This document shows positions 17,088 to 44,653 of a stretch of 64,000 bases of DNA, one piece after another. A program made the position numbers and the translations under genes. This stretch comes from Demequina sp. (GTDB lineage: Bacteria > Actinomycetota > Actinomycetes > Actinomycetales > Demequinaceae), in NCBI GenBank assembly GCA_024707205.1, contig JANQAD010000001.1, positions 2,197,979-2,261,978 of the forward strand. The letters run 5' to 3'. The notes beneath the pieces were generated by a model. That model saw only the letters and a program-made list of their open reading frames with translations. It was not told where the DNA came from and did no database searches. Positions within the stretch are counted from its first letter, which is position 1, and every line of letters starts with the position of its first letter.

Positions 17088-17389
17088 TGCCGCATTACCT
17101 TCTGCGGTACCAGTACGTCGACGGGATCGACGCGAAGCGTGGCCCGTACAGAGACGAGCACCTGACCCGACTGTGGGCGGAGGCCGATGCAGGGCGAGTG
17201 CTGATCGCCGGGGGAGCGGGCGATCCCGTGAGCGAGGGCATCATCGCGTGGAGCGTCGACGACCCGCAGCTGATCCACGAGTTTGTCAAGGGCGATCCCT
17301 ACATGACGGCAGGCCTCATCACGTCGTATGACGTGGTGCCGTGGCGAACCGTGGTCGGTGACGCGGCCGCGGAGCCGCTGCGCCCCTAG
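17087..17389 (+). CDS. YciI-like (YCII-related) protein
   Basis: A 100-residue ferredoxin-like alpha+beta protein of the YCII family: [22 protein letters not shown] with the conserved His, GRVLIAGGAGDPVSEGIIAW, then FVKGDPYMTAGLITSYDVVPW. Members are small dimeric proteins with a conserved His-Asp pair; roles range from dehalogenase-like catalysis to unknown. The ATG overlaps the sigA stop (TGATG), so the two genes form one translationally coupled unit. Confidence 0.85.
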   Translation: MPHYLLRYQYVDGIDAKRGPYRDEHLTRLWAEADAGRVLIAGGAGDPVSEGIIAWSVDDPQLIHEFVKGDPYMTAGLITSYDVVPWRTVVGDAAAEPLRP

Positions 17390-17392
17390 CCT

Positions 17393-18367
17393 CTACGGCA
17401 CCGTCGCCGGGTCCTCAGGGAGGGCCGACGCCGGCTCGCCGTCCGCGGCGCGATCGCGCGCGGTCTGGGCTACCACGATCCCCGCGAGCACCAGGGCCGC
17501 GCCCGCGATCTGGACCGCGATGAGGGTCTCTCCGAGCCACACCCACGCCACGACGAAGGCGAACAGCACCTCCGAGGATGCGAGGATGCCGACCGCCGTG
17601 GCGGAGAGATGGCGCAGCGCGGCGAAACTCAGCACGAACGGCGCGAACGCGCCGAGCGTGATGACCCAAAGCGTCGGGACCCACAGCGGCACGTGAACGT
17701 CGTCGAGCGCGCCCGTGAGGGACACCGTGCTGCTCATGAGCGCGGGGTCCAGCCGCCACCAGCCGCTGAACAGCGCCCAGAACGCCGTCGCGAAGGCGGA
17801 GGCCCAGAAGGTCACCGCCATCGCTGGGCGGCGGGCCACGCCGCGTTCGCCCGCCAGGAAGTAGAACGCGTAGGCGACCGCGGCAGCGAGCGCCGCAAGC
17901 GTGCCGATCCAGTCGAGGCTGATGTCCCAGACCTCGGCCACGATCGACAGCCCGATGACGACGAACGCGATAGCGAGCCACAGCCGCGCGTGCACCTGCT
18001 CCTTGAACAGCAGCCACGCGGCGAGAGCAACGAGGATGACCGCGGTGTACTCGATGAGCAGCGCCACCCCAACGGGCAGGCGAGAGATCGCGACCGCGTA
18101 GAGCCACTGGATCATCGCGACGCCGGCCACGCCGAGGGCGGCAAGACCGGCGGCGTCGCGGGCGGAGATGCGAAACTGCTCCCTCGCGGAGACCGCGAGC
18201 ACGGCGCCGGCGATGACCGCCGTCGACAGGGTCCTGAGGAACGTCAGCTGAGCCGCGGTGACGCCCGCGCCGATCACAACCTTCGCGACCGAGCCGTTGA
18301 CGCCAAAGAGGAGGGCGCCCGTGAGTGCGTACACCGAGCCGCGTACGGGGGAGCGGTGCACGGTCAC
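17393..18367 (-). CDS. EamA/DMT-superfamily transporter
   Basis: A 324-residue integral membrane protein with about ten hydrophobic helices in two similar halves, the layout of the drug/metabolite (EamA/RhaT) superfamily; each half ends in a GxxLVLxG-type helix. The substrate cannot be deduced. The C-terminal ~25 residues are charged and cytoplasmic. The GTG start is likely leaderless: TAGGCT (18374-18379, minus strand) lies 6 nt before it. It is convergent with the YciI-like gene, with only 3 nt between stops. Confidence 0.85.
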   Translation of the reverse strand: MTVHRSPVRGSVYALTGALLFGVNGSVAKVVIGAGVTAAQLTFLRTLSTAVIAGAVLAVSAREQFRISARDAAGLAALGVAGVAMIQWLYAVAISRLPVGVALLIEYTAVILVALAAWLLFKEQVHARLWLAIAFVVIGLSIVAEVWDISLDWIGTLAALAAAVAYAFYFLAGERGVARRPAMAVTFWASAFATAFWALFSGWWRLDPALMSSTVSLTGALDDVHVPLWVPTLWVITLGAFAPFVLSFAALRHLSATAVGILASSEVLFAFVVAWVWLGETLIAVQIAGAALVLAGIVVAQTARDRAADGEPASALPEDPATVP

Positions 18368-18442
18368 CGCGCCAGCCTACGGTCCCACCACCCCCGCATC
18401 GTCTCGGTACAAGGGTGTCGCTACCGCGGGGTTGTGACGCCC

Positions 18443-18577
18443 GGAGCGTGGCGTCCGTGCGGGTTCACGACGGACGTCTGCGCGGAGCGTGGCGTCGGTG
18501 CGGGTTCACGACGGACGTCTGCGCGGAGCGTGGCGTCGGTGCGGGTTCACGACGGACGTCTGCGCGGAGTGTCCGTC
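18443..18577 (+). repeat. 41-bp tandem repeat, three copies plus partial
   Basis: Copies start at 18443, 18484 and 18525 with a period of exactly 41 bp; a fourth begins at 18566 and decays after GGAG. Each unit begins GGAGCGTGGCGTC and contains GCGGGTTCACGACGGACG. Only one difference (C to G at about 18454) is visible between copies 1 and 2. Because 41 is not a multiple of 3, the array is not a protein repeat. It should be length-variable between strains. Confidence 0.85.
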
Positions 18578-18682
18578 ACGAACCGACGGCCGCAGGTTCC
18601 TGACGGACCTCTCCGCGATCGGTCCCGCGAACCCCACCGCCCCTGCGAACCCCGCGCCCCTGTGAACCCCGCCGCCCCTGCA

Positions 18683-18741
18683 TCCTCTCGGTACAACGGT
18701 GTCGTTACCGCGCGGGAAACGACCCGTGTGTACCGAGAGGA
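18683..18741. repeat. Long imperfect inverted repeat (hairpin)
   Basis: TCCTCTCGGTACA (18683-18695) and TGTACCGAGAGGA (18729-18741) are perfect 13-bp inverted repeats. Inside them, the GTCGTT and AACGAC arms extend the pairing with small bulges, leaving a loop around ACCGCGCGGG. The outer sequence also occurs once more at ~18400 in copy A. It ends about 50 bp before the next gene, so it could be a terminator, operator or element end. Confidence 0.6.
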
Positions 18742-18791
18742 GGTGGAGGGAGAGGGCGCTAGCATCGACATGACCCCGAACGGAGAATCAC

Positions 18792-19133
18792 GTGGACTTC
18801 CTGCGCTACACGTTGCTGACGCTGCACATCCTGGGCGCCGCGGCGATCATCGGCCCCGCGTTCGAGCAGCTGCGATCCGACGCCAAGCGCATCACGACTG
18901 TCATGGTGTGGGGTGCCCGCGCGCAGATCGTCACCGGCCTCGCGCTCGTGGGCGTCGCCTACGCGAACGACGCCGACCCCGACCACGCCAAGATCGCGGT
19001 CAAGCTGCTGATCGCGCTCGCGGTTGTAGGCATTGCGGAGGCCACGCGCAAGAAGGGCGCCGTCGCGTGGGCGTTCTGGTCGGTGTTCCTCCTGACGATC
19101 GTCAACGTCATCGTCGCTGTGTTCTGGCACTGA
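18792..19133 (+). CDS. Small integral membrane protein, unknown function
   Basis: A 113-residue protein with three or four hydrophobic helices (LLTLHILGAAAIIGPAF, IVTGLALVGVAYA, VKLLIALAVVGIAEA, WSVFLLTIVNVIVAVFW). I do not recognise a specific family with certainty; His12 in the first helix and short charged loops are its only marked features. The GTG start has GGAGAATC just upstream as a weak Shine-Dalgarno. The stop precedes the GNAT gene start by 1 nt, so the two are probably co-transcribed. Confidence 0.7.
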   Translation: MDFLRYTLLTLHILGAAAIIGPAFEQLRSDAKRITTVMVWGARAQIVTGLALVGVAYANDADPDHAKIAVKLLIALAVVGIAEATRKKGAVAWAFWSVFLLTIVNVIVAVFWH

Positions 19134-19134
19134 A

Positions 19135-19614
19135 ATGACAGTGGTGAGGCCTGCGGTTCCGGACGACGCCGCGGAGATCGTCCACTTGGGCGCACTCATG
19201 TACAAGTCCGTCGGCGCCAAGCCCACGCCGCAGTGGGCGCTCGAATCCACGCGGATCGTCAAGGAGCGCATTGGGCGCGATCTGATTGGCTTCGTGATCG
19301 ACGCCCCAGAGGGCGGTCTTGCGAGCTGCGGTCTCGTGAACGTGGAGCCGCGCCTGCCGCGCCCGGGCAGGCACTCGCCGCTCGTGGGCTACGTCCAATG
19401 GGTCTCCACCGCGCCGCAGCACTACCGCAAGGGCTACGCGAGAGCCATCATGAACGCACTCCTCGAGGAGACGGACAGGCGAGGCATCGAGGTGGTGGAG
19501 CTCCACGCTACGGAGCGCGGCCGCCATCTCTACGACGACCTGGGTTTCTTCGAGAAGCGAGACAACGTCGCGATGCAGGCGTTGCGTGGCGATGCGGCGA
19601 AGGAACGGCGCTAG
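19135..19614 (+). CDS. GNAT-family N-acetyltransferase
   Basis: A 159-residue acetyltransferase of the GNAT fold. The acetyl-CoA-binding segment is WVSTAPQHYRKGYARAIMNALLEE (motif A, Q/RxxGxG/A variant), and motif B is LHATERGRHLYDDLGFFEK. The substrate is unknown. It directly follows the small membrane protein gene and lies 60 bp before parE. Confidence 0.8.
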   Translation: MTVVRPAVPDDAAEIVHLGALMYKSVGAKPTPQWALESTRIVKERIGRDLIGFVIDAPEGGLASCGLVNVEPRLPRPGRHSPLVGYVQWVSTAPQHYRKGYARAIMNALLEETDRRGIEVVELHATERGRHLYDDLGFFEKRDNVAMQALRGDAAKERR

Positions 19615-44531: not shown

Positions 44532-44653
44532 CCTGCGCGGAGTCGCAGGCCTCAGCCGGAATGGGTCGTGGTAGTCGCGAAAGCGCGATTTCGCGACCAC
44601 CAGAGCCCATTCCAAGCGGTGCCAGATTCTGCGACTCGCTGCGCTCGCGCAGG
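44532..44653. terminator. Long nested hairpin between convergent dxs and RNase D genes
   Basis: Four successive arm pairs are visible: CCTGCGCG (44532-44539) with CGCGCAGG (44646-44653); GAGTCGCAG (44540-44548) with CTGCGACTC (44629-44637); GGAATGGG (44558-44565) with CCCATTCC (44606-44613); and GTCGCGAAA (44574-44582) with TTTCGCGAC (44589-44597) around GCGCGA. The structure fills almost the whole 142-bp gap. A bidirectional terminator is the simplest role, though four stacked stems exceed what termination needs. Confidence 0.7.

Follow-up and report, generated by a model that had tools for sequence, protein, structure and literature searches.

The matS/MatP system of the E. coli Ter macrodomain comprises many copies of one site confined to a single chromosome domain, with matS being the 13-bp palindrome GTGACRNYGTCAC (PMC3116907, in the passages dealing with matS). 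The nucleoid occlusion protein SlmA has about 50 sites, which occur mainly in coding regions and are excluded from one macrodomain, Ter (same passages of PMC3116907). Tus/Ter fork traps make use of long, non-palindromic sites, which are located on the terminus side and are restricted to certain taxa (excerpts of PMC8707476). The uptake sequences (DUS/USS) number hundreds to thousands per genome and include in-gene copies, intergenic inverted pairs and species dialects (excerpts of PMC2346458 and PMC3630211), while the REP/REPIN and RPE families consist of short, dispersed, imperfect palindromes, some of them near-copies, with the known REP superfamilies tagged by a terminal unpaired GTAG or CGTC (PMC3733652, in the section on these families).

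A palindrome in an intergenic region of Demequina sp. belongs to a set of 43 sites which resembles each of these systems in part. Like matS, one site occurs in many copies, which here lie mostly in the dif half of the chromosome and are clustered, but the Demequina site is longer, asymmetric, single or paired, off-centre from dif and found in one species only, and its sequence does not match matS. The set shares with the SlmA sites a comparable number, a coding-region bias and one empty domain, but the empty part lies on the origin side and the sequence differs. The features listed for Tus/Ter sites are likewise shared; however, the known traps have fewer sites, the polarity observed here is weak and the inverted pairs do not fit. 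In comparison to DUS/USS, the sites are few and unevenly placed. Unlike the REP families, no terminal GTAG or CGTC tag was seen by eye in the twelve aligned pairs, which end in CCTSTCGGTACA, and the single sites add no length in the gene families aligned.

The analysis started from the window, a stretch of 64,000 nucleotides (contig JANQAD010000001.1, positions 2,197,979 to 2,261,978), in which a composite locus occupies the intergenic space between a divergent EamA gene and a small gene (Table 1). The sequence-only reading had described a gene-free locus of two similar copies flanking near-perfect 41-bp repeats, with a 13-bp perfect inverted repeat at the second copy, and all of these elements were recovered, with the copies at 18384-18431 and 18668-18715 (48 nt; 85 % identical) and the inverted repeat formed by TCCTCTCGGTACA and TGTACCGAGAGGA. 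The first copy, hereafter the half copy, contains a sequence-model match at 18388-18427 (chromosome position 2216366; E 4e-8 with the model R1; 34.2 bits with a model of all sites), and the second forms part of an inverted pair of sites, which extends over 18668-18756. Between the half copy and the pair sits the 41-bp array, a local repeat in its own right; further genomic copies of the 41-mer, for which a search had been proposed, were not found, with own-genome BLAST matching the window locus alone. The sequence-only reading had noticed neither the degenerate fourth unit nor the C-rich array listed in Table 1, nor the genome-wide family to which the arms belong.

Table 1. Features of the composite repeat locus and its flanking genes, in window positions
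Feature	Position	Strand	Evidence
EamA-family transporter gene, flanking	17393-18367	-	PF00892, E 2.7e-29
Half copy: one single motif site with C-rich 5' flank	18384-18431	+	Self-similarity, model search
41-bp tandem array, 3.1 copies, 98 % matches	18442-18569	+	Repeat search
Fourth 41-bp repeat unit, partial and degenerate	~18584-18615	+	Local alignment
Imperfect C-rich array, unit ~18 bp, running into the left arm	18627-18681	+	Repeat search
Inverted pair, left site	18671-18711	+	Model, 40.4 bits
Inverted pair, right site, facing the left site	18712-18752	-	Model, 38.4 bits
Palindromic core with 13-bp perfect arms (18683-18695 and 18729-18741)	18683-18741	.	Repeat search, folding
Small flanking gene, without Pfam match	18792-19133	+	Homologues in 20/24 relatives searched

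On either strand, the stretch 18655-18760 folds better than 200/200 dinucleotide shuffles (z -6.3 and -5.4), and the fold of the half-copy stretch (18384-18470) is unremarkable (z -1.5; 17/200 shuffles equal or better). Among single-base shuffles of 18380-18780, 3/2000 contain a perfect inverted repeat of 13 bp whose spacer does not exceed 60. No Rfam family reached its gathering score within 17300-19300, where the sole match was mir-4716 (19.4 bits against 76; E 1). The EamA gene still adjoins the small gene in 6/20 relative loci, all of the same genus, with a spacer of ~98-174 bp against 424 bp here (start codons assumed). The extra length at the window locus thus amounts to ~250-330 bp, with poor intergenic alignment at such distance. 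The same sequence in orthologous regions, which would have pointed to a fixed local structure, was not found in these relatives; their spacers are short, and none holds a palindrome of the same kind. An orthologous hairpin was sought in the 20 relative loci and rejected. Two loci (L200 and L205) have a short-loop hairpin upstream, of a sequence unrelated to the window palindrome, and in a third (L186; score 16.2) the inner gap measures 35 bases and falls within an apparent coding stretch.

Both arms of the palindrome represent one asymmetric motif, approximately CTSTCGGTACA-N5-GTCGYTWC, with a fixed inner spacing, a C-rich 5' flank and a strongly conserved part of ~23 bp. Using two BLAST searches, pattern searches and R1, a model for which just the 24 paired arms were used, 43 sites could be distinguished in the 2.54-Mb chromosome, with 24 occurring as twelve inverted pairs and nineteen as single sites (31 loci). 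The search for further copies of the arm suggested in the sequence-only reading was therefore productive by all three approaches. Own-genome BLAST with the window locus yielded eighteen matches which, besides the locus itself, all fall in arms, and TCGGTACA is present in 24/24 paired arms and 18/19 singles. R1 recovered eighteen singles at E <0.009 and one at 0.039. Its own-genome matches at E <=1 number 45, two of which (2065227, E 0.33; 2422756, E 0.76) were discounted as chance, while the single at 1828669 (E 0.039), although chance gave a match at least as good in other genomes, was retained because BLAST also matched it (E 8.6e-4) and it shares a gene with another site. When a model of all sites was applied to 411 kb of the own genome, 31/32 matches scored at least 29.6 bits and the next 17.3, and 800 kb from two relatives gave one match of 13.2 bits; as this model was trained on the own sites their scores are partly by construction, while the score gap below them is not. 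The site scores are thus all-or-none.

The motif is apparently restricted to one species. BLAST gave no match in 38 other genomes, including 24 of the same genus, and R1, applied to 24 further genomes (16 of the genus and 8 of the order), reached an E of 0.038 at best. A 43-site model, filtered more strictly and limited to a small number of scored candidates in each genome, was also run against 396 genomes of the order and found nothing above chance in the 395 others, fourteen of which gave one match each at E <=0.05 (best 0.001), about the number expected by chance for 395. At the level of a literature survey, no actinobacterial terminus motif, fork trap or miniature inverted repeat was recognised as CTSTCGGTACA-N5-GTCGYTWC. 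A viral origin was considered and rejected: exact matches to TCGGTACAN5GTCGNTT occur in 87 stretches of viral contigs, one match each, and were taken as chance without a shuffled control, with none of the 87 matching stretches listed containing two.

The inverted pairs are in part copies of one another. The most alike two are 96 % identical over 57 bp, free positions included, and the median of all pair comparisons is 84 %. At the five N positions, the arms within a pair agree in 0.28 of cases against 0.42 when the arms are re-dealt, with 99.7 % of shuffles as high or higher. Among the nine of twelve pairs for which both neighbouring genes were determined, seven are flanked by co-directional and two by divergent genes, and none by convergent genes.

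Thirteen of the nineteen singles sit in twelve Pfam-recognised genes. These code for an aldehyde dehydrogenase, an ABC exporter, a ferric-reductase-like protein, HemB, a methyltransferase, an RNA uracil methyltransferase, a SpoU methylase, an ABC ATPase, an esterase, an amidohydrolase, a GH10 protein (two sites) and an NAD synthetase (NadE). Three further singles (L062, L067 and L073) lie in open frames without Pfam match, and three (L063, L064 and the window half copy) apparently lie outside genes. The gap test covered three families, in which the site is ungapped in 80/80 amidohydrolase, 22/22 HemB and 18/18 NadE homologues, and likewise for NadE against PDB 3n05; ten of the 80 amidohydrolase homologues carry a single additional residue, which lies 11 residues upstream of the site. 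The absence of gaps in these families indicates that the motif arose in place, through substitutions. The relatives fit 6-11 (HemB) and 7-14 (NadE) of 21 motif positions, against 18 and 19 in the own genome, and the nucleotide identity of these two genes is 0.63-0.77 outside the site and 0.38-0.69 in the site region. Sixteen sites were submitted to a codon test, of which L063 gave no reading frame and was dropped, and the codons within the remaining fifteen are much rarer than those of the flanks (mean log relative use -1.10 for 119 codons vs -0.41 for 1400; p 1e-14), with ACA, GGT, TTA and ATA among the rare codons inside the sites. The motif therefore forces rare codons, a constraint at the DNA level. 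Furthermore, it runs along the gene in 13/15 cases and against it in 2/15, and so acts as DNA and not as message. Free position 8 is C in 10/19 singles and 5/24 paired arms, with T or A in 17/24 arms, such that the singles do not look like arm copies. The GH10 gene (L017) carries two inward-facing sites, at chromosome positions 1827836 and 1828669, ~0.83 kb apart. Inward-facing sites at this distance occur only there and not around a transposase, and a transposon with GH10 cargo was rejected, as both half sites fall within an intact GH10 reading frame.

On the chromosome, dnaA is located at 1.088 Mb, while the best dif-like sequence, which has one mismatch and resembles the dif suggested for Frankia (PMC3025954, in its account of that sequence), is found at 2.350 Mb, close to the antipode at 2.357 Mb; the GC skew is too weak to show or confirm a terminus. 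The dif-centred half holds 28/31 loci (12/12 pairs and 16/19 singles), or 10/12 when a single locus is kept per 50 kb. Sites are absent from 0.812-1.828 Mb, a 1.02-Mb stretch on the origin side which contains dnaA and makes up ~40 % of the chromosome. The chance of such a gap, which was picked post hoc, is 1e-7 for 31 independent loci and 0.002 for twelve loci at one per 50 kb. Considering that the mean site position lies 180 kb from dif and that the sites are densest at 2.06-2.16 Mb, the set is terminus-side and not terminus-centred. Eleven of the twelve pairs lie on one side of dif, and 2.217-2.498 Mb holds only one single. The singles point towards dif in 14/19 cases (8+/4- on the left arm and 1+/6- on the right; Fisher p 0.057, binomial p 0.064), a strand polarity that is suggestive and remains unproven because the singles also follow gene direction.

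A long site of fixed spacing, occurring singly and in inverted pairs, imposing a codon cost and leaving one part of the chromosome empty, behaves like a protein recognition site with a chromosome-scale role. The 43 sites may represent the recognition motif of a putative DNA-binding protein which acts on the terminus side, like the sites of matS/MatP or SlmA without belonging to either by sequence, a reading held tentatively and with a little less than even confidence. The window palindrome would then be an inverted pair of the long asymmetric site, read by a putative protein of the species' own, which would bind a pair twice and a single once, and the bound sites could mark or organise the terminus-side chromosome, as matS/MatP do for Ter and SlmA for the non-Ter part. 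The pairs would probably have multiplied partly by copying, and the singles would have arisen by point substitution where genes already resembled the motif. A more far-reaching version is possible but rather doubtful, namely an undescribed actinobacterial system, in which a putative protein would read a 23-40 bp asymmetric site in at least a dozen genes and a dozen intergenic pairs, marking the side opposite the origin as a counterpart of matS/MatP that evolved independently and is specific to the lineage. Several observations count against a binding protein with this role. A core chromosome-organising system is expected to be shared, yet BLAST found the motif in none of 24 same-genus genomes; the set lies off-centre from dif, and the GC skew gives no terminus signal; binding-site selection need not produce near-copy pairs; and slow selection might leave intermediates in place of all-or-none scores. 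No convincing candidate for the protein emerged from a 410-kb region, in which 156/407 called genes had no hit in the corresponding regions of two relatives and some of these were read by eye, and this, together with sister species that lack the motif, forms the main weakness of the reading.

The near-copy pairs would fit a mobile palindrome, either a MITE or REP-like element of ~57 bp which copies itself into intergenic spaces and leaves the singles as fragments or secondary sites. The longer spacer at the window locus and the presence of other palindrome families nearby are in agreement with this, and the miniature mobile element proposed from the letters alone stands to the extent that some pairs are near-identical. 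However, 19/43 sites are single and thirteen of these fall in Pfam genes, with no inserted length in the three aligned families, so that a miniature mobile element hardly explains the motif family; neither do the singles resemble copies at position 8, nor was a transposase-bearing element with such ends seen. A mobile palindrome is considered unlikely. A transcription-regulator operator or attenuator, or a leader RNA hairpin, would account for the strong hairpin at the window locus and for the start of at least one gene beside the pair in all nine pairs with both neighbours determined, but would leave unexplained the singles within genes on either strand. An RNA hairpin was rejected, given that the arms are not kept complementary at the free positions and the Rfam search gave nothing above a gathering score, and regulation of this kind as a whole appears distinctly unlikely.

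An uptake-signal-like sequence spread by molecular drive, as in the Neisseriaceae and Pasteurellaceae, would unite the in-gene singles with the intergenic inverted pairs, and the preferred gene orientation and the species restriction also have parallels among uptake sequences (the relevant passages of PMC3630211 and PMC2346458). Such sequences would nevertheless be expected in far greater numbers and with less strongly uneven placement, and the terminator-like pairs expected between convergent genes are missing (0/9), making this explanation very improbable. Polar replication-fork barriers or pause sites of the Tus/Ter kind are judged to have just as small a chance. They would suit a long asymmetric site, its terminus-side placement and the orientation of most singles towards dif, but the polarity falls short of significance and is confounded by gene direction, twelve inverted pairs would stop forks both ways, and the sites are not dif-centred. 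Should the binding-protein reading hold, the sites would constitute a system for marking chromosome domains that is distinct from those known and of recent date, being present in one species and in none of the 24 sister species searched, and ~30 loci with a protein-coding cost measurable per site would render the origin of such site sets testable. If the mobile or the uptake explanation is correct, a repeat motif within genes of unchanged length would still be unusual.

Other repeats were observed in the same chromosome and in one relative. A palindrome at window positions 44558-44613 (GGAATGGGTC...GTCGCGAAA...CCCATTCC) recurs at chromosome position 1972332 and, as a lone arm, at 2176154, and its layout of outer word, spacer and GTCG resembles that of the main motif. 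A further composite repeat locus (L299; chromosome 2010767-2012046) contains seven near-exact copies of the 18-bp word GTACGCACATGAGCGTCG in tandem direct and inverted arrangement, and two more inverted-repeat families, GGTTGAGGTAGGTGG and CCCAACACTCCTGACCACTC, are found at 2265908, 2281347, 2281440 and 2323040; 1987474 and 2339335. The relative G003 carries three near-identical palindromes, CATATGGTTGTGGTGG-[A/T]CGTTT..., at 583170, 730656 and 731710 (L256 and L263). The inner arms of one of these (GGTCGTTT/AAACGACC) are like the main motif, while the outer arms differ, and the G003 palindromes are possibly an analogous system. Finally, one 40-base stretch occurs twice in the Demequina sp. 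chromosome, at 2025042 and 2052652, with the second opening a 441-codon frame which is without likeness in the corresponding regions of two relatives and presumably codes for an IS256-type transposase.
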